This document shows positions 8,714 through 58,668 of a DNA stretch of 58,668 bases, in pieces (position 1 is the stretch's first letter; each line of letters opens with the position of its first letter). The notes beneath the pieces were generated by a model, which ran no database searches, was not told where the DNA came from, and saw nothing but the letters and a program-made list of their open reading frames with translations. The stretch is from Aquificaceae bacterium (GTDB taxonomy: Bacteria; Aquificota; Aquificia; Aquificales; Aquificaceae). The DNA is taken from assembly GCA_025062075.1 (NCBI GenBank), contig JANXBA010000052.1, forward strand, positions 1 through 58,668, in the 5' to 3' direction. The translations under genes and the position numbers were made by a program.

Positions 8714-9163
8714 TCATATATTATAATAGCCCGTGGAACCAAAACCCCTCTCCGCCCGCCCTGTGGTGCTGAGCTCCTCCACCTCCTCCAACTCTACTCT
8801 CACCACCTGACAGACTACCAGCTGGGCTATTCTGTCCCCGCGCCTTACTAAAAAGTCTTCCTGACCAAGGTTTACGAGAATTACCTTGACCTCCCCTCGG
8901 TAGTCCGCGTCCACGGTGCCGGGGGAGTTAAGCAAGGTCACGCCGTGCCTGAGGGCAAGACCGCTTCTCGGTCTGACCTGCGCCTCAAAGCCGGGCGGGA
9001 GCTCCACCGCTATGCCCGTGGGGACTAAGGCTCTACCTAAGGGCTTTATAAGCAGGGGCTCTTCCACCGCCGCCAGCAGGTCCATGCCCGACGCGTGCTC
9101 CGTGGCGTAAAAAGGCAGGGGCAAGTCCCGTGCGTGGGGAAGCCTTTTTACCTTTATGCGCAT
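8714..9163 (-). CDS. dut: dUTP diphosphatase
   Basis: This 149-residue trimeric-type dUTPase hydrolyses dUTP to dUMP and pyrophosphate, keeping uracil out of DNA and supplying dTMP synthesis. All five family motifs are present: [41 protein letters not shown] and the C-terminal phosphate-closing arm [11 protein letters not shown]. Length is standard. The ATG at 9163 is preceded by TAAAAT (9178-9173) rather than a Shine-Dalgarno site. It sits between mlaE and the antiporter in the minus-strand run. Confidence 0.96.
8720..8725 (-). promoter_or_regulatory. -10 element for the antiporter gene
   Basis: An exact minus-strand TATAAT lies inside the last codons of dut and ends 10 nt before the antiporter ATG. 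It suggests an internal promoter in the run, with an extremely short leader. Confidence 0.5.
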
Positions 9164-9172
9164 GGCCAGAGT

Positions 9173-9178
9173 ATTTTA
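9173..9178 (-). promoter_or_regulatory. -10-like element for dut
   Basis: TAAAAT overlaps the mlaE stop codon and ends 9 nt before the dut ATG. It is a 5-of-6 match; the case rests on the same layout at other genes. Confidence 0.35.
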
Positions 9179-9913
9179 GAATATAACCGCAGTGAGGAAG
9201 TAGTCGGACACGAGCACCAGCATGGAGGAGGTCACCACGCTGTTTGTGGTGGCCCTACCTACGCCCTCCGTGCCCCCCTGCGTGTAGTACCCAAAGTAAC
9301 AGCTGACCGCAGAGACTATAAACCCGAAGAAAACCGCCTTGTAAAGGCCTCCTACAAAGTCGTAGAGCTCCACGAGGTCTCGCATCTTCTCCCAGAAGAG
9401 GTACTCGTTGACCTCAAAGAGCTTGACCGCCACAAACCACCCGCCGAAGATACCCGAAAGGTCCGCAATCACCACCAACATGGGCACGCCCACTATGCCC
9501 GCAAAGAGTCTGGGACTCACCAAGTAGCTGACCGAGTTTATGCCCATCACCTCGAGGGCATCTATCTGCTCCGTGATTCTCATGGTGCCTATCTGGGCGG
9601 TCATGGCAGAGCCCACACGTGCCACTACCATGAGGGAGGCCAGCACCGGCCCCAGCTCCCTGCCCATGGAGAGGGCAACCACCGCACCTATCAAAAACTC
9701 CGCGTTGAACCTCTGAAAGACGCTGTAGGTCTGCAGGGCGATGACCCCACCAGAGAAGGTGGAGGTAATCACCACCACCGGAATGGTTTCGGAGGCAAGG
9801 TAAGCAAGCTGTTTTACAAAGTGGGCCACTCGTGGGGGTTTCCTGAACATGTAGTAAAGCCCCCAGAGGGTAAGAAGGGTAGCCCTGCCCACCTCCTCAA
9901 TAATCTTTGACAT
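9176..9913 (-). CDS. mlaE: MlaE-family ABC transporter permease
   Basis: This 245-residue inner-membrane protein has about five to six hydrophobic segments and belongs to the MlaE/YrbE permease family, which moves phospholipids or other lipids between the inner and outer membrane. Characteristic stretches are GGVIALQTYSVFQRF, GRELGPVLASLMVVARVGSA, IGTMRITEQIDALEVMGI and the C-terminal GTEGVGRATTNSVVTSSMLV. Its start overlaps the end of aroC by 17 bp, so it is read as part of the same operon. The partner ATPase (MlaF) and substrate-binding protein (MlaD) are not in the window. The protein matches the family in length. Confidence 0.93.
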   Translation of the reverse strand: MSKIIEEVGRATLLTLWGLYYMFRKPPRVAHFVKQLAYLASETIPVVVITSTFSGGVIALQTYSVFQRFNAEFLIGAVVALSMGRELGPVLASLMVVARVGSAMTAQIGTMRITEQIDALEVMGINSVSYLVSPRLFAGIVGVPMLVVIADLSGIFGGWFVAVKLFEVNEYLFWEKMRDLVELYDFVGGLYKAVFFGFIVSAVSCYFGYYTQGGTEGVGRATTNSVVTSSMLVLVSDYFLTAVIF

Positions 9914-11057
9914 GCTCCATGTACCTCTCGAAACGCTCTTTTATCTCCTCCATAAAGTCCCCTCCTAACTTCTCCAAAAGGGCGTCCGCCAGCACGAGGG
10001 CGAGCATGGCCTCCCCCACCACCGAGGCCGCAGGAACTGCTACCACGTCGCTTCTCTCCTTGCCCGCCCTTACCTCTTCTCTTGTTTTTATGTCCACACT
10101 TTTAAGAGCCTTAGTAAGAGTAGGTATGGGCTTCATGGCACAGCGCACCACCAAGGGCATACCATTGGTGATACCTCCCTCTGTGCCACCCAGCCGGTTG
10201 GTGTGGCGAAAGTAGCCCTCCTCGGACCTGCCTATCTCGTCGTGGACCTCTGAGCCGAACATACTCGCCAGCTGGAAGCCTCCCCCTATCTCCACACCCT
10301 TTATAGCCTGTATGCTCATCATGGCTTGGGCTATTCTCCCGTCTATGCGCCTGTCCCACTGGATGTGACTACCAAGACCCGGTGGCACTCCCAGCGCAAA
10401 AACCTCAAACACGCCCCCCAAACTTTCACCTTCCTCCCGTGCCCTGTCTATGAGCTCTTTAAACTGCTCGTCCTTGGAAGGGTCTGGAAAGCGCACCTCC
10501 GAGAGCTCCGCCAGCTGGTGTCTTCTGAGAAGGTCCGGCTCTTCCACCGGCGGTGTCAGCTTGCCTATGCTTACCACGTAGCTTCCTATCTTTATGCCAA
10601 ACTCCTCCAAGAGGCGTTTGCATACCGCTCCCGCGGCCACGCGGGCGACTGTCTCCCTGGCGGAGGCTCTCTCCAACACGTTGCGTAGGTCTCTCTGGTT
10701 GTACTTTATGCCACCTGCCAAGTCCGCATGGCCCGGCCTTGGCCTTGTGAAAGGGACAACCTTCTCGGAGGGCTCTCCTTCGCACGCCATCTTCTCCTGC
10801 CAGTTTTCCCAGTCCTTGTTCCAAACGGCCATGGCGATAGGGCTTCCCAGCGTCTTCCCAAAGCGAAGACCCGAGAGAAACTCCACCCTGTCGCTCTCTA
10901 TCTTCATCCTGCCCCCCCTTCCGTAGCCCTTTTGCCTTCGCTGGAGCTCTGCGTTTATGTGTTCCGAGGAGAGCTCTAAGTTAGCCGGGATGCCCTCAAG
11001 TATGCACAGAAGGCCCCTTCCGTGGGACTCGCCAGCGGTCAGAAACCTTATTGGCAT
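9897..11057 (-). CDS. aroC: Chorismate synthase
   Basis: AroC converts EPSP to chorismate, the last shikimate step, using reduced FMN. The 386-residue protein carries the N-terminal signature FLTAGESHGRGLLCILEGIP, the RRQKGYGRGGRMKIE stretch, RPRPGHADLAGGIKY, ERASARETVARVAAGAV and GGTEGGITNGMPLVVR, so the FMN and phosphate-binding arginines and histidines are present. Length is normal. The ATG shares one base with the rpmB stop (TGATG), so translation is probably coupled to ribosomal protein L28. The 3' end overlaps mlaE by 17 bp. Confidence 0.97.
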   Translation of the reverse strand: MPIRFLTAGESHGRGLLCILEGIPANLELSSEHINAELQRRQKGYGRGGRMKIESDRVEFLSGLRFGKTLGSPIAMAVWNKDWENWQEKMACEGEPSEKVVPFTRPRPGHADLAGGIKYNQRDLRNVLERASARETVARVAAGAVCKRLLEEFGIKIGSYVVSIGKLTPPVEEPDLLRRHQLAELSEVRFPDPSKDEQFKELIDRAREEGESLGGVFEVFALGVPPGLGSHIQWDRRIDGRIAQAMMSIQAIKGVEIGGGFQLASMFGSEVHDEIGRSEEGYFRHTNRLGGTEGGITNGMPLVVRCAMKPIPTLTKALKSVDIKTREEVRAGKERSDVVAVPAASVVGEAMLALVLADALLEKLGGDFMEEIKERFERYMEHVKDY

Positions 11058-16426: not shown

Positions 16427-18683
<2,257 letters not shown>

Positions 18684-18704
18684 GCCCTTAAAGATATGCA
18701 AACT

Positions 18705-19397
18705 TCATGCCAAGGTCTTCAGGAGGGCTATTAAACTCTCAAGGGTGGGCTTTTCAGGCTTGAGGCAGGGCAGGTCCAGCAACTGACGGAGGACACTCTC
18801 CGTAGTCTTTCCAAGGCACAGAAGCCTCTTCTGAGCGAGAAGGCTTTGGGCGGTCTGCCTTTGCAAGTTTGCCAAAAGCCCCTTCACCGCAGAGGGACTG
18901 GCAAAGACCACCACCTGAGCCTGCGAGAGCTTCTCTTTTATCTCCTCCTCCTCGTAGAGCTTGGCTCTTACCGTGTAAACCTCCAAGGGATAAACCTCAA
19001 GGCCGAGGCTTTTCAAACCTTCTAAGACCTCCTCCCTGCCTACCGCGGAACGAGGCAGAAGCACCCTTCCCTTAAGACCTCTGAAGAGCTCAAGGAGTTC
19101 CTGACCGTAATATTCTTCCGGCATTGCCCAGACTTGGTAGCCAAAGGCCCGCACCTCCCTTGCGGTCTTTTCGCCCACCACCACTATCTTTTCCTCCCCG
19201 AGCTGACACTTAGAAAGAAATAGCCTGACCGCCCTGGGGCTTAAAAATACCACGTAGTCAAACTCTATTTTTGGCACCTCAAAGGGCAGGGGCACCTCCT
19301 CAAGAAGGGGGAGCTCCACCACCTGAAAGCCCTCCCTCTCTAAAGCCACTTTGTCCTTTTGCACGTCCTCGGGGCTTCTGGTCAGGGCCACTTTCAT
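18705..19397 (-). CDS. hemD: Uroporphyrinogen-III synthase
   Basis: HemD closes hydroxymethylbilane with inversion of ring D to give uroporphyrinogen III. The sequence is poorly conserved across the family, but the 230 residues show the two-lobe pattern. Supporting stretches are VALTRSPEDVQKDKVALEREG at the start (quoted in part by position 2-22), FDYVVFLSPRAVRLF, VVVGEKTAREVRAFGYQV, LLPRSAVGREEVLEGL, VVVFASPSAVKGLL and LCLGKTTESVLRQL. The C-terminal serine-containing FASPSAV loop is diagnostic. It is divergent from dnaG across only 17 bp, and is followed by lpxC. hemH lies 9 kb away in another unit. Confidence 0.88.
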   Translation of the reverse strand: MKVALTRSPEDVQKDKVALEREGFQVVELPLLEEVPLPFEVPKIEFDYVVFLSPRAVRLFLSKCQLGEEKIVVVGEKTAREVRAFGYQVWAMPEEYYGQELLELFRGLKGRVLLPRSAVGREEVLEGLKSLGLEVYPLEVYTVRAKLYEEEEIKEKLSQAQVVVFASPSAVKGLLANLQRQTAQSLLAQKRLLCLGKTTESVLRQLLDLPCLKPEKPTLESLIALLKTLA

Positions 19398-52901: not shown

Positions 52902-53765
52902 ATGAGGTTGATACCCCCGCAGGAGAGGTTTTTCAACTTTGAGGCCTCGGACAGGCTCAAGGGCTTTTTTCTCAAAGCCTGTGAGGTCTTCAAGGACTAC
53001 AGGTTCATAGTGCTACCCTCTTTAGAGGTTTACCAAGAGGGGCTCTCCGGAGAGTCTCCCTTTGTGGTAGGCAGTCTTCAAGACGGAGGTCTGCTGTGTC
53101 TTAGGCAGGACTGGACGGTGAGCCTTGCCCGTTTTCTGAGCTTGCAGAGGGAACTCCCCCTACCCTTGCGGGTCTTTTACTGGGGGAATACTTTTTCTCC
53201 CGGAGGTGAGTTGGAGAGCTTTCAGGTGGGTGTGGAGTTCCTGGGTGACACCTCGGTGGGGGCGGAGGTGGAGGTCCTACAGGCCATAGGAGACTACCTG
53301 AGAGCCTGTGGCACGCAAGAGCTCACTCTGAGCTTGGGACATGTGGCCATAGTAGAAGAGATGCTAAGAGAGTGCGGACACGGCTACAGGGAGGCAGTGC
53401 TGGAGAAGAACTTCTCCGCCCTCTGCCACGTCCCACCTTTGATGGACCTACTTCTTGCCCAAGGCGGTTTAGAGGTGTTGGAGAGCTTCAGCGGAAAGTA
53501 TCCGCAGTTTTCCCCCCACTGCCAGCACCTTGCCCAAGTGGCCAGTGAGCTGAAGGGCTTTAAGGTGGTCTTTGACCTGTCGGAGATAAGACCCAAAGAT
53601 TACTACACTGGGCTCGTCTTTGAGTTTTACCACCCAAAAGTAGGTCAGCCAGTGGCGGGGGGTGGGAGGTACGACCGTCTTTACAAGAACTTGGGGAGAG
53701 ACATATGCGCCTTCGGCGGTGCGGTCTATCTTGACCCCTTGTTGGAAGTGGTCTCATGCGTCTGA
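52902..53765 (+). CDS. hisZ: ATP phosphoribosyltransferase regulatory subunit HisZ
   Basis: HisZ is a catalytically inactive HisRS-like protein that activates the short form of HisG in histidine synthesis. The 287-residue product has class II synthetase-like stretches: [52 protein letters not shown] and the motif-3-like [16 protein letters not shown]. It is shorter than many HisZ proteins (about 320-390) and lacks an anticodon domain, as expected. Its 3' end overlaps copA by 10 bp. hisG is not in the window. Confidence 0.9.
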
Positions 53766-55765
53766 GCTTGAAAGTGTCTGGTATGACCTGCGTTAACTGT
53801 GCCAAGTCCGTGGAGTTAAGCCTCAAAAGGCTAAAGGGCGTCCAGGAGGTGAGCGTTTCCTTAGAGGCGGGTAGGGTGTGGGTGGAGTTTGCGGAGGACT
53901 ACATAGACCCCGAGCGGATAAGGGCCCACATAGAGTCCTTGGGCTACCGCGTGGAGGAGCTCCAGAGCAGAGACAGAAGTCTGGAGGTGTTGACCCTCTG
54001 CTGGCTTCTGAGTCTGACACTGATGACCCTTATGTTCTGGCACGGCCCTTTCAGCTTAGAGCTCCAGGCCCTTCTGGCCATTGCGGTGCAGGGTGTGGGA
54101 GGCTACAGCCTTTACAGGGGAGCTCTCGGTGCCCTACGCACCCGCGTAGGTAACATGGACCTGCTGGTGGCTTTGGGCAGTACCTCCGCCCTTGCCTACA
54201 GTCTTCTGTCCTTTTGGGGGCTCCTGCCGGGTGAGCCCTTCTTTGAAACCTCCGCCTTTCTCGTGACTTTTGTGCGCACGGGGAAGTTCTTAGAGGAGTG
54301 GGTCAGGGCGAGAGCTCTCAAGAGCCTGCGCGAGCTCCTTTCCCTGCAAACGCTCAAGGCAAGGGTGCTGAAAGAGGGCAGAGAAGAAGAGAAAAGCCCG
54401 CAGGAGGTCTTCGTGGGCGACATACTCTTGCTGAGGACTGGGGACGTGGTGCCCGTGGACTGCGTGCTATTAGAGGGCTCTCTTGAGGTGGAGGAGTCCC
54501 TGCTCACCGGAGAGAGCACGCCGGTAAAGAAAGGTCAGGGAGACAGGCTTCTCTCAGGCAGCTCCGTGGTCTCCGGCTTTGGTAGGGCAAGGGCGGAGAA
54601 GACCTTCTTGGGGAGCTCCGCCAACCTTTTGGCAAAGTTAGTGGAGGAGACCCTAAGCAAAAAGCCCAGGCTTCAGCGGTTGGCGGACCAGCTCTCCCAC
54701 CACTTCGTGCAGGTGGTTCTTCTTCTGTCCGTGGCGGTTTTCCTGCTCTGGTATCTGAAAACCGGGGAGGTGAGGACTGCCCTCAACTTTGCCCTTTCGG
54801 TGTTGGTGGTGTCCTGCCCCTGTGCCTTTGGTATTGCGGTCCCACTGGCCCTCACGGTGGGACTTTTAAGGGCTCAGCGCAGGGGCGTCCTTATAAAAGA
54901 CCCCTCCGCGGTGGAAAAGTCGGTGCAGGTGCTCCTCTTGGACAAGACAGGCACGCTGACTGAGGGTAGACCAAGGCTGGTGAGCTACACTCTGTGGGAG
55001 GAGGGAGCTCTGAAAGTGGCCTGTGCCATGGCAAAGGCCTCCAACCACCCCTACTCGGTAGCTCTGAGGGATTTCTGCACCCAAGGGGGCGTGGAGACAG
55101 GCCCTGCGGAAGACTGCGTAGAAAAGGTGGGCGTAGGCGTGCTGTGGGGAGAGTACCTGCTGGGAAGGTCGGAGCAGGCGCAGGTAGCGCTTTACCGCAA
55201 CGGTCAGAAGCTGGCGGAGTTCTTCTTTGAGGACAGGCTCAGAGAAGAGGTGCGCGAAGTAGTCTCCTTCCTGAGAAAGAGGGGCATGCGCCTTGTTATG
55301 CTAACCGGCGACAGGGAAGAGAGAGCCAAAGCGGTAGCCAAAGAGCTGGGCATAGAGGAGTTTCTGGCAGAGGTGAGACCCGAGGACAAGCTGAAAAAAG
55401 TGAAAGAGCTCAAGGAGAAGGGTCTCCGCGTGGGAGTGGTAGGGGACGGCGTAAACGACGCACCTGCCATGGCGGAGGCGGACATATCCTTCGCCCTGAG
55501 CTCCGGGGCGGACATGACAAAAAGGGCAGGAGACGTGGTGCTCCTTAAAGGCATAGGAGCTCTAAAAGTCTTTTTCCAAGAGAGAGACAGAACCATGAGA
55601 CGCATAAGGGAAAACCTTTTCTGGGCGTTTGCGTACAACCTCGTAGGCATACCGGTAGCCGCAGGCCTCTTCTACGAGCAAGGCATACACCTGAAGCCCG
55701 AGCTGGCGGGTCTTATGATGGCTCTGTCTTCCCTTAGCGTGGTCTTGAACTCGGCGAGGAAGTAG
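53756..55765 (+). CDS. copA: Copper-translocating P1B-type ATPase
   Basis: This 669-residue pump exports copper from the cytoplasm. One N-terminal metal-binding domain carries GMTCVNC (Cys12 and Cys15). Eight membrane helices are predicted, with the ion-binding CPC motif in VSCPCAFGIAVPLAL. The cytoplasmic parts show LLTGESTPVKKG, the phosphorylated Asp near residue 396 in DKTGTLTEGRP, SNHPYSVAL (HP motif) and VGDGVNDAPAMAEADI. CPC rather than SPC or CPH favours Cu(I). It is translationally coupled to hisZ by a 10-bp overlap, an odd pairing. rpsP follows on its own promoter. Confidence 0.96.
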   Translation: MRLSLKVSGMTCVNCAKSVELSLKRLKGVQEVSVSLEAGRVWVEFAEDYIDPERIRAHIESLGYRVEELQSRDRSLEVLTLCWLLSLTLMTLMFWHGPFSLELQALLAIAVQGVGGYSLYRGALGALRTRVGNMDLLVALGSTSALAYSLLSFWGLLPGEPFFETSAFLVTFVRTGKFLEEWVRARALKSLRELLSLQTLKARVLKEGREEEKSPQEVFVGDILLLRTGDVVPVDCVLLEGSLEVEESLLTGESTPVKKGQGDRLLSGSSVVSGFGRARAEKTFLGSSANLLAKLVEETLSKKPRLQRLADQLSHHFVQVVLLLSVAVFLLWYLKTGEVRTALNFALSVLVVSCPCAFGIAVPLALTVGLLRAQRRGVLIKDPSAVEKSVQVLLLDKTGTLTEGRPRLVSYTLWEEGALKVACAMAKASNHPYSVALRDFCTQGGVETGPAEDCVEKVGVGVLWGEYLLGRSEQAQVALYRNGQKLAEFFFEDRLREEVREVVSFLRKRGMRLVMLTGDREERAKAVAKELGIEEFLAEVRPEDKLKKVKELKEKGLRVGVVGDGVNDAPAMAEADISFALSSGADMTKRAGDVVLLKGIGALKVFFQERDRTMRRIRENLFWAFAYNLVGIPVAAGLFYEQGIHLKPELAGLMMALSSLSVVLNSARK

Positions 55766-55767
55766 TG

Positions 55768-55773
55768 TATAAT
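55768..55773 (+). promoter_or_regulatory. -10 element for rpsP-khpA
   Basis: An exact TATAAT lies just past the copA stop and 27 nt before the rpsP ATG, leaving a leader with the AGGAGGT site. Confidence 0.55.
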
Positions 55774-55800
55774 AAATCAATTGTTGACCAGGAGGTTGGT

Positions 55801-56040
55801 ATGGCGCTCAGGATAAGGGTTGCCCGATACGGGAGAAGACATCACCCCATATACAGGGTCGTAGTGGCGGAGGCAAAGGCGGCGCGGGACGGCAAAGTGG
55901 TGGACGTAATCGCCACCTACGACCCAGTCCAGAAGAGACTCATAGAAGTAAAAGAGGAAAAACTAAAAGACTGGCTTCAGAAAGGAGCTCAGCTTACCGA
56001 TAGAGCCAAGGCTATACTCAAGAGTTCGAAAATACTCTAA
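55801..56040 (+). CDS. rpsP: 30S ribosomal protein S16
   Basis: The 79-residue product begins ALRIRVARYGRRHHPIYRVV and has VVAEAKAARDGKVVDVIATY and WLQKGAQLTDRAKAILK, the full S16 pattern. The ATG at 55801 is set by a strong AGGAGGT immediately upstream; the frame runs 12 codons further up through the promoter and is not used. It is followed 13 bp later by khpA, the common bacterial rpsP-khpA order. Confidence 0.97.
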   Translation: MALRIRVARYGRRHHPIYRVVVAEAKAARDGKVVDVIATYDPVQKRLIEVKEEKLKDWLQKGAQLTDRAKAILKSSKIL

Positions 56041-56053
56041 CAGGAGGTGGATT

Positions 56054-56293
56054 ATGAGCCAGCTAAGGGACATCGTGGAGATTACCGCCAAGTCCTTGGT
56101 GGACAACCCCAACAAGGTGAACGTACAGGAAATTGAAGGGGAGAAGACCGTAGTGATAGAGCTGAGGGTGGACAAGGGAGACCTTGGTAAGGTGATAGGC
56201 AAAGGGGGACGCATCGCTAGGTCCCTTAGAACCATTCTGGCCTCCATGGGCAGAAAGATAAACAAGAGAGTGGTGTTAGAGATTCTTGAGTAG
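56054..56293 (+). CDS. khpA: KH-domain RNA-binding protein KhpA
   Basis: This 79-residue protein is a single KH domain with the RNA-binding loop GKVIGKGGRIARSLRTIL and VVIELRVDKGDLGK before it. In other bacteria it pairs with KhpB and affects small RNA and division functions. A GGAGGTGG site lies upstream of the ATG at 56054. Its position after rpsP is the conserved one. The usual rimM-trmD continuation is missing; metK follows on its own promoter. Confidence 0.93.
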   Translation: MSQLRDIVEITAKSLVDNPNKVNVQEIEGEKTVVIELRVDKGDLGKVIGKGGRIARSLRTILASMGRKINKRVVLEILE

Positions 56294-56295
56294 CT

Positions 56296-56301
56296 TATAA
56301 T
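56296..56301 (+). promoter_or_regulatory. -10 element for metK-selC
   Basis: An exact TATAAT lies 8 nt before the metK ATG. It may also transcribe the tRNA gene that begins on the base after the metK stop. Confidence 0.5.
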
Positions 56302-56309
56302 AGACCCCC

Positions 56310-57446
56310 ATGGGAAGGGCTATAAAGATGGCAGAGTCCCCCATGGAGGGGCATCCTGACAAGTTAGCAGACCTGATAGCGGACGCTCTGCTGGACGAGT
56401 TTTTGAGAAAAGACCCCTACAGCAGAGTCTCCTTAGAGATACTGCTACTCTCTGGGATGACCTTTGTGGCGGGGCATGTGTCCACAGAGAGCTATGTGGA
56501 CATACCCGGCGTAGTACGAAGAACCATAAAGGAGACGGGCTACAACAGGCCCGAGTACGGGTTTGACGCGGATTCCTCCGCGGTCATAACCTCCATAGAG
56601 GAGCAGAGCCCAGACATAGCCTTGGGTATATCCTCCGAGGGTGCGGGAGACACCGCCACGGTGGTGGGTTACGCCTGCAAGGACACGCCCAACTACATGC
56701 CCCTTCCCATAAGTCTGGCCCACAACCTCTCCAGAAGGGTTTCAGAACTGCGCAAGTCGGGCAGAGCTCCCTTCCTACGACCTGACGGGAAGGTGCTCAT
56801 AACCGCGGTCTACGAGGAGGAAAGGCCCCTTTTCGTGAAAGACATTATTCTCTTCTGCCAGCACGACCCGGAGATATCCTTGGAAAAGCTCAGAGACTTC
56901 TTAGTGGAAGAGGCGGTCAAGAAGGTAGTCCCAGAGCACATGCTCAAGAGGGAGACCAGAGTGTTAGTGAACCCCTCCGGAAGGTTCGTGCTCGGAGGTC
57001 CTGCGGCGGATGCAGGGCAGACAGGCAGGAAAATCGTCTCCGACGCCTACGGTGATGTGGCCTACTCGGGCGGAAGTGCCTTCTCAGGCAAAGACCCCAC
57101 TAAGACGGACCGAACCGCCTCCTACATGGCCCGCATGATGGCAAAGCATGTGGTGGCCAGCGGTCTTGCGGACCGGTGCATGGTGCAGATGGCCTACGCC
57201 TTCGGCATGAGCGAGGTAATAGCGATAGACATAGAGACCTACCGCACGGAGAAGGTGGAGAAAGAACGCATAATGCAAAGGCTCCTTGAAGTTTTTCCCA
57301 CAAACCCCAGAAGAATGGTGGAGTTCTTAGACCTAAGAAGGCCCATATACAAGCAGACCGCCTGCTACGGGCACTTCGGAAAAGAGGAGCTCCCCTGGGA
57401 GAAGCTCACTAAGGTGGAGGACCTCTCGGAGCTCCTGTCCAATTGA
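56310..57446 (+). CDS. metK: S-adenosylmethionine synthetase (divergent)
   Basis: MetK makes SAM from ATP and methionine. The 378-residue protein follows the bacterial fold in order: EGHPDKLADLIADALLDEFL (His15, Asp17), FDADSSAVITSIEEQSPDIA, PLPISLAHNL, INPSGRF-type VNPSGRFVLGGPAADAG, SAFSGKDPTKTDR and ASGLADRCMVQMAYAFGMSE. Two signatures diverge. The usual GAGDQGLMFGYA is GAGDTATVVGYA (111-122), and the usual GGGAFSGKD is GGSAFSGKD. The catalytic acidic, His and Lys residues appear kept, so I call it functional but distinct. It is leaderless by layout, and selC begins on the next base after its stop. Confidence 0.9.
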   Translation: MGRAIKMAESPMEGHPDKLADLIADALLDEFLRKDPYSRVSLEILLLSGMTFVAGHVSTESYVDIPGVVRRTIKETGYNRPEYGFDADSSAVITSIEEQSPDIALGISSEGAGDTATVVGYACKDTPNYMPLPISLAHNLSRRVSELRKSGRAPFLRPDGKVLITAVYEEERPLFVKDIILFCQHDPEISLEKLRDFLVEEAVKKVVPEHMLKRETRVLVNPSGRFVLGGPAADAGQTGRKIVSDAYGDVAYSGGSAFSGKDPTKTDRTASYMARMMAKHVVASGLADRCMVQMAYAFGMSEVIAIDIETYRTEKVEKERIMQRLLEVFPTNPRRMVEFLDLRRPIYKQTACYGHFGKEELPWEKLTKVEDLSELLSN

Positions 57447-57542
57447 GGGAGAGTTTGGCGCGCTGGTGCGGTCCAGGGACTTCAAATCCCGTGAGAGGCC
57501 TCGAGAGGGGTCTCTGGAGGGTTCGATTCCCTCACTCTCCCG
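57447..57542 (+). tRNA. selC: tRNA-Sec (anticodon UCA)
   Basis: This 96-nt sequence folds as a selenocysteine tRNA. The acceptor stem has 8 bp (GGGAGAGT at 57447-57454 with ACTCTCCC at 57534-57541) plus discriminator G. The anticodon loop CTTCAAA at 57480-57486 gives anticodon TCA at 57482-57484, on a GGGA/TCCC stem. A long variable arm runs from about 57493 to 57514. A 5-bp T stem GAGGG/CCCTC encloses TTCGATT. The 8+5 acceptor-T arrangement and the identical CTTCAAA loop match bacterial tRNA-Sec rather than a Leu or Ser tRNA or a suppressor. CCA is not encoded. The gene starts on the base after the metK stop. Confidence 0.93.
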
Positions 57543-57550
57543 TGAGCGTT

Positions 57551-57556
57551 TATAAT
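57551..57556 (+). promoter_or_regulatory. -10 element for the helicase gene
   Basis: An exact TATAAT lies between selC and the helicase ATG, 19 nt before it, with a G-rich stretch (57566-57571) as a weak ribosome-binding site. Confidence 0.45.
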
Positions 57557-57575
57557 ATCTATCACGGGGGGCAGA

Positions 57576-58668
57576 ATGGAAAACCTTCTCGTTGGTCTTA
57601 GTCAGGCTCAAGAGCGTGCGGTATGCTTACAGAGCAGGTATATAAGAGTGATTGCAGGAGCTGGTGCAGGTAAAACAGAGACATTAACTAGAAGGATCAT
57701 CTATCTGTTGACTACTGATTCTTCTCTGAAACCCAAAAATGTGGTGGCGTTCACCTTTACTGAGAAGGCAGCACAGAGTATGAAAGATAGAATTTACATA
57801 AAGCTGAATGAAATCCAGAGACGAGATGTGTTACAGGAAATAGGTGACATGTTTATAGGAACTATACACAGTTTTTGCTTACGCTTGTTACAAGAGCATT
57901 TCGGATATGGAAACTATATGGTTCTTGATGACAAGCAGGAAGTAGCTTTTCTTTTCCAACATAATAGAGATGTTTTTAATGATTATATGAGAGATAAAAA
58001 TTTAAAAGTGAAGATCCAAAGATTTTTAAAACACGTAAACATATTTTACGATGAGCTAATTGATAAAAAAGACCTTGAAAAACACTTAAGTACAGAACAA
58101 AGATATCAAAGCTTTTATGAAAGCCTAAAAAAATACGAAAGTCTACTTGAAAAACACAAGGTACTCACTTTTCCGCTTATGACCTATTTAGCTGTAGAGA
58201 AATTGAGGCAAAATTCTGATATAATAGAAACGCTTGATATCAAGCACCTAATAGTTGATGAATTCCAAGACCTAAATAAATGTCAGTATGAACTGGTCAA
58301 ATTAATTGGTCAAAAAGCCAACGTATTCGTTGTAGGAGACCCTAGACAAACCATATACCAGTGGCGAGGTTCCAGTAATGAGTTTTTTGAAGAATTTAGC
58401 AAGGATTTTAAGGACGTAAAATATGTACTGATACCTGAAAATAGAAGAAGTGCGACAAGCATAGTTGAATACGCGAACAAATTTTCTGAAAGTTTTGAAA
58501 ATACTATCAAAGACCCAATGGAAAGTAAAAGAGAAAAAAAAGGTGTAGTACAGTATTATGAATATGAAAATCCAAAACAGGAAGCTGAATTTATAGCAAA
58601 ACAAATTAAAGAATTGGTAGAATCAGGAAAGTGCCAGTACAGCGACATTGCCATACTCTTAAGAAGCG
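57576..58668 (+). CDS. UvrD/Rep-family SF1 DNA helicase (3' truncated, AT-rich, probably acquired)
   Basis: The frame runs open from the ATG at 57576 to the window end, 364 codons so far. Superfamily 1A helicase motifs appear in order: QAQERAV (Q motif), IAGAGAGKTETLTRR (Walker A), VAFTFTEKAA (Ia), GTIHSFCLRLL (Ib), IVDEFQDLNKCQYELV (II), VGDPRQTIYQWRG (III) and ENRRS (IV). The spacing is shorter than in UvrD or PcrA, so it may be a compact variant such as those in defense modules or mobile elements. I cannot name the subfamily. Codon use shifts to AAA/GAA and T-ending codons, and local GC is roughly 20-35%, against about 60% in metK. It begins 33 bp after selC. Confidence 0.9.
   Translation, partial: MENLLVGLSQAQERAVCLQSRYIRVIAGAGAGKTETLTRRIIYLLTTDSSLKPKNVVAFTFTEKAAQSMKDRIYIKLNEIQRRDVLQEIGDMFIGTIHSFCLRLLQEHFGYGNYMVLDDKQEVAFLFQHNRDVFNDYMRDKNLKVKIQRFLKHVNIFYDELIDKKDLEKHLSTEQRYQSFYESLKKYESLLEKHKVLTFPLMTYLAVEKLRQNSDIIETLDIKHLIVDEFQDLNKCQYELVKLIGQKANVFVVGDPRQTIYQWRGSSNEFFEEFSKDFKDVKYVLIPENRRSATSIVEYANKFSESFENTIKDPMESKREKKGVVQYYEYENPKQEAEFIAKQIKELVESGKCQYSDIAILLRS

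Follow-up and report, generated by a model that had tools for sequence, protein, structure and literature searches.

A probably acquired low-GC segment behind selC in an Aquificaceae genome, likely opening with the front half of a UvrD-Cas4-type helicase-nuclease gene

The family of UvrD-Cas4 (pfam12705) fusion proteins was described in 2017 in the study Phylogenomics of Cas4 family nucleases (PMC5704561). Type III Mod/Res genes are the commonest neighbours of these fusions, Dcm/Vsr being the other reported context, and an ancillary role in unwinding and cleavage was proposed for them (PMC5704561). The main text of that paper (PMC5704561) mentions neither Aquificota nor Thermotogota. In this study, we analyzed a helicase gene at the end of a contig from an Aquificaceae bacterium. 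It probably represents the front half of a UvrD-Cas4-type fusion, located at the left end of an acquired segment after selC and linked to restriction-based defence. An earlier sequence-only reading of the same DNA had named this place as the best one to look for something undescribed; with the fusion family known since 2017, this is not supported, and the gene probably belongs to a type of anti-phage accessory gene known from the literature.

The window, i.e. the whole stretch of DNA that was analyzed, comprises 58,668 nucleotides and is an entire contig (G000:C31:1-58668) of a genome of 66 contigs (1.247 Mb), the end of the window being the contig end. Nearly the whole bin was read as stretches, with eight contigs shorter than 3 kb masked as N. 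Extension of the assembly to the right, as proposed in the sequence-only reading, did not succeed, since the window is the whole contig and its last 34 bases are absent elsewhere in the bin, giving no continuation past position 58668. Also, the last 15-21 bases had no match in any other fetched contig of the bin, and an exact 30-base pattern search for a continuation in viral contigs gave no match. Low-GC islands frequently fail to bin, which may serve as an explanation. Other contig ends of the bin were inspected as well. The starts of two contigs, G000:C28:1-366 and G000:C64:1-366, are 83% identical, which may reflect gene duplication or the presence of another strain. Contig C14 (G000:C14, L088) has one of the lowest-GC regions of the genome at 17187-18935, carrying cas6 followed by a low-GC ORF that runs off the contig end and is Cas8-like by eye, with no Pfam match; this is a CRISPR-Cas locus broken at the contig end. 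With cas6 and the Cas8-like ORF, this contig end is not evidently the right edge of the selC segment. Further low-GC contig ends on C11 (G000:C11, L085; 346-828) and C22 (G000:C22, L096; 5682-6485) carry, as judged by eye, a putative DNA methylase and an insertion-sequence transposase.

Toward the end of the window, the host-like metK gene for S-adenosylmethionine synthetase (56310..57446, + strand; GC 0.56, GC3 0.71) ends with a stop codon directly abutting selC, the gene for tRNA-Sec with the anticodon TCA, which was detected by ARAGORN (57447..57542, + strand). The selC gene has no encoded CCA, which is likewise missing in 8 of 9 relatives, and it is probably functional because a SelB gene is present elsewhere in the genome. 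The following 33-bp spacer (57543..57575, + strand) forms the 5′ edge of the low-GC segment and contains, as read from its sequence, a hexamer resembling TATAAT as well as a run rich in G ahead of an ATG; a scan of this spacer revealed no two-hexamer sigma-70 promoter. The ORF starting there (57576..58668, + strand) encodes a UvrD-like SF1 helicase, is cut by the contig end after the N-terminal 364 aa, and is ortholog-like to ATHSA_RS09735 of plasmid pATS1. By aligning its translation with the pATS1 homologue and PcrA, we located, all on the + strand, helicase motif I (Walker A; GAGAGKT, residues 28-34, 57657..57677), motif II (Walker B; VDEFQD, residues 227-232, 58254..58271), the motif III region (GDPRQTIYQWRG, residues 254-265, 58335..58370) and the motif IV region (ENRRS, residues 288-292, 58437..58451). 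In addition to these four motifs, the Q motif and motif Ia can be read, and motifs V and VI lie beyond the contig end. The protein gave matches to PF00580 (E 1.7e-56) and to PF13361 (positions 1-80) and, judged by its sequence, is a UvrD/Rep-type SF1 helicase, the classifiable part being 364 aa located entirely within the region common to the UvrD family. Thus, the sequence-only reading was right about the tRNA-Sec gene ahead of the low-GC region and about an SF1 helicase opening the segment; it went too far in ascribing all ATPase motifs to the window, and its description of the helicase as compact lacks support, as the ORF is cut by the contig end and the nearest homologue has 928 aa.

Just past selC, the GC content drops from 0.54-0.61 to 0.29-0.34. 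The last 1000 bases of the window have 33.5% GC, the lowest value of all 11,499 1-kb windows of the genome (mean 0.536, sd 0.027), in line with the fall in GC that had been read from the sequence before. The helicase ORF shows the lowest GC3 among 634 ORFs of at least 250 aa (0.316 vs 0.679 ± 0.052). Its start is less extreme than the remainder, the first 40 codons having 46% GC, yet a GC3 of 0.33.

The distribution of the gene was analyzed with the full-length pATS1 homologue as query (E<=1e-60). Among 136 genomes of the phylum, only the window genome gave a match, and the other 135 were without one. When the window fragment itself was compared with 61 relatives, nearly all matches showed 32-36% identity, consistent with UvrD/PcrA-type helicases; members of the genus and family have only distant UvrD, and the host genome has its own UvrD on contig C66. 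A tree calculated from 46 helicases pairs the window protein with the pATS1 homologue (support 100/97); this pair is joined by the Haloferax and SJ525 (deltaproteobacterial) fusion proteins (95/95), and the Aquificota UvrD clade (99/95) is located apart from the window protein. The window protein thereby combines a UvrD-like SF1 domain (PF00580) with a position inside the clade of fusions. Horizontal acquisition of the helicase, as already proposed in the sequence-only reading, is well supported because of the extreme composition, the absence from 135 genomes of the phylum and the grouping with a plasmid protein of Thermotogota.

The best plasmid match of the window protein was ATHSA_RS09735, encoded on pATS1 of Athalassotoga saccharophila, with 48% identity over residues 8-364 (98% of the fragment) and a BLAST score of 319 bits; the next plasmid match among the matches listed showed 31% identity. 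ATHSA_RS09735 comprises 928 aa, with a UvrD helicase followed by C-terminal PDDEXK_1 (1.1e-23) and Cas4 (6.7e-10) matches. Located 3′ of it are genes for a 989-aa type III methylase Mod and a 1039-aa restriction subunit Res, which score 448 and 438 bits, respectively, on type III models. Upstream of this helicase-Mod-Res arrangement, on the opposite strand, pATS1 (L052) encodes at 8770-10764 a protein of 664 aa whose PLD-like domain is related to NgoFVII. A tblastn search of IMG/VR with the pATS1 helicase gave no relatives, and a search for relatives of the pATS1 Mod, Res, and PLD proteins across the bin (contigs shorter than 3 kb as N) found none. The same UvrD-nuclease domain order adjoins Mod/Res in SJ525 (deltaproteobacterial contig L046) and on Priestia plasmid p6_CACC119, and an N6/N4 methylase on Haloferax pSVX82-3. 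Plasmid 4 of Priestia JX285 carries a 921-aa helicase homologue, whose C-terminus was not scanned, near a cytosine methylase, Vsr and an MspI-type REase. The type III Mod/Res and Dcm/Vsr-like neighbours of the relatives match both contexts given in PMC5704561. The C-terminal PD-(D/E)XK domain is present in the pATS1, Haloferax, SJ525, and Priestia p6_CACC119 relatives; the window ORF ends at residue 364. Related type III Mod/Res also occur with SNF2-type partner proteins on Klebsiella, Aeromonas, and Conchiformibius plasmids and with separate UvrD and nuclease genes in haloarchaea; therefore, the helicase partner is exchangeable.

Concerning the chromosomal context, selC is followed in most relatives possessing it by a conserved 110-aa gene (no Pfam match) and thrS (e.g. 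L054, L055, L056, L058, L060), and several relatives have a gene resembling fdhE before selC. In the window genome, thrS is located on C64 with other neighbours, and the conserved 110-aa gene was not found. The locus could be read in 11 genus relatives, and in all 11 metK and a hisZ-like gene point toward each other; in the window (52902-57446), a hisZ-like gene (52902-53765), a P-type metal ATPase gene, rpsP and metK are all on the + strand, followed by selC. This hisZ-like/metK/selC gene order is a rearrangement specific to the window genome, and the locus is both a rearrangement breakpoint and a composition break, at which selC and metK both changed their context. As the flanks are rearranged on both sides, an empty site is not readable from the relatives, and none with the same flanks was found among them. 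A search of the fetched bin for second copies of the selC 3′ end (14-24 bases) gave none; the right side is not assembled, and no integrase gene is seen in the assembled part of the low-GC segment, which consists of one partial gene. Of the island at selC proposed in the sequence-only reading, the abrupt composition change at the 3′ end of the tRNA gene and the sporadic presence, as expected of a tRNA island, are thus borne out; the rearranged flanks do not agree with it. Arrival by tRNA-targeted integration at selC is a possibility.

The window helicase might be explained in other ways. That it is a vertically inherited Aquificota UvrD with an odd composition is hardly conceivable: beyond shared superfamily membership nothing speaks for it, the host has its own UvrD, and forcing the window protein into the Aquificota UvrD clade costs a delta lnL of 97.8 (AU test, p 8e-77). 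Two observations named in the sequence-only reading as speaking against acquisition, i.e. relatives sharing the helicase and a grouping with vertically inherited Aquificae UvrD, thereby failed to appear, the former being absent from the other 135 genomes at E<=1e-60 and the latter being rejected by the AU test. A stand-alone UvrD/PcrA-like helicase acquired from a plasmid or phage, lacking a nuclease or a defence role and acting as a helper in replication or repair, would fit the good scores of generic PcrA/UvrD models and PcrA structures on the fragment; however, by far the nearest homologue is a fusion protein (319 bits) and the tree groups the window helicase with fusions, which makes this explanation unlikely. 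Very unlikely is the assignment as the GajB subunit of a Gabija system, although many GajB models match the core of the helicase and GajB models were among the best PADLOC matches (195.4 bits, E 4e-58). The generic PcrA model scored higher (204.5 bits), the pATS1 fusion, a non-GajB protein, likewise reached 196 bits with the GajB models, solved GajB sequences matched 93 residues only with about 52 bits as compared to 153 bits for PcrA, and upstream of the helicase there are metK and selC instead of GajA, an OLD-family ATPase/nuclease. A likeness specific to GajB was thus not found, considering the higher PcrA score and the 93-residue match to GajB in the PDB, and the Gabija assignment is not supported. 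Of the defence link suggested earlier, the general idea remains plausible via UvrD-Cas4 fusions beside type III restriction-modification (R-M) systems, and the Gabija example was dropped in view of the PcrA and GajB scores.

A different concern is the contiguity of the last 1.1 kb. These might be chimeric, with the host selC being joined to low-GC DNA of another organism via the conserved tRNA 3′ end. The relatives share an almost unchanged 3′ portion of selC (about 27 nt), and it is precisely at this point that the composition shifts. The contig stops 1.1 kb later with no continuation in the bin, and mixed strains are possible, as the bin contains one or more pairs of contig ends with 83% identity (C28, C64). 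However, a true tRNA-targeted insertion also breaks at the tRNA 3′ end, a start codon with a plausible ribosome-binding site is located 33 bp after the tRNA gene, and the reported contamination of the bin is 0.49%; we therefore regard a chimera as rather improbable. There is also a slim chance that the missing right side is a novel defence island of a thermophile mobile element that targets selC in Aquificota and in which the UvrD-Cas4-type helicase is part of a system other than plain type III R-M.

According to the preferred reading, with the helicase as the front half of a UvrD-Cas4-type fusion, the low-GC tail would form the left end of DNA that was acquired horizontally and starts directly after selC. 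Its first gene would encode a 3′-5′ SF1 DNA helicase with a RecB/Cas4-like PD-(D/E)XK nuclease domain past the contig end; this domain is predicted for the window copy by analogy with the relatives. Likewise, Mod/Res or another R-M system is expected downstream, type III Mod/Res being the most likely partner by analogy with the closest relative. The R-M system would label self DNA and cleave or mark invading DNA that lacks methylation; the helicase-nuclease could then load on cut or stalled DNA and unwind and degrade the exposed DNA, the putative outcome being added defence against phages or plasmids. Such a function would come close to the ancillary one suggested in PMC5704561. In the literature, no experiment on such a degradation role of an R-M-linked helicase-nuclease was found. 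A defence role of the window helicase is what we infer from these relatives. The locus is a clear and quantifiable instance of DNA acquisition by a small Aquificota genome, and it would extend the restriction-linked helicase-nuclease family to Aquificota. The nearest relative in another thermophile phylum suggests exchange between hot-spring lineages, and the contig end illustrates how metagenome bins can lose acquired segments from the left edge onward.

Compared with the known systems, the window gene falls, by its helicase part, among the UvrD-Cas4 fusion members from pATS1, Haloferax, and SJ525; the nuclease half and the neighbours are known from these relatives, whereas the window copy is known as the N-terminal part only. 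The pATS1 helicase and the window helicase are alike in being located in low-GC DNA (helicase GC 0.34-0.35), but the former is plasmid-borne with a PLD-family gene upstream on the opposite strand and the latter is located on a chromosomal contig after selC. Gabija GajB shares the UvrD-like SF1 helicase core; its solved chains have about 500 aa, GajA is not present upstream in the window, and the GajB models are non-discriminating here. With the housekeeping helicases PcrA, UvrD, and Rep, the window protein shares by sequence motifs I-IV and the overall helicase domain, whereas the tree sets it apart from the host UvrD on C66.
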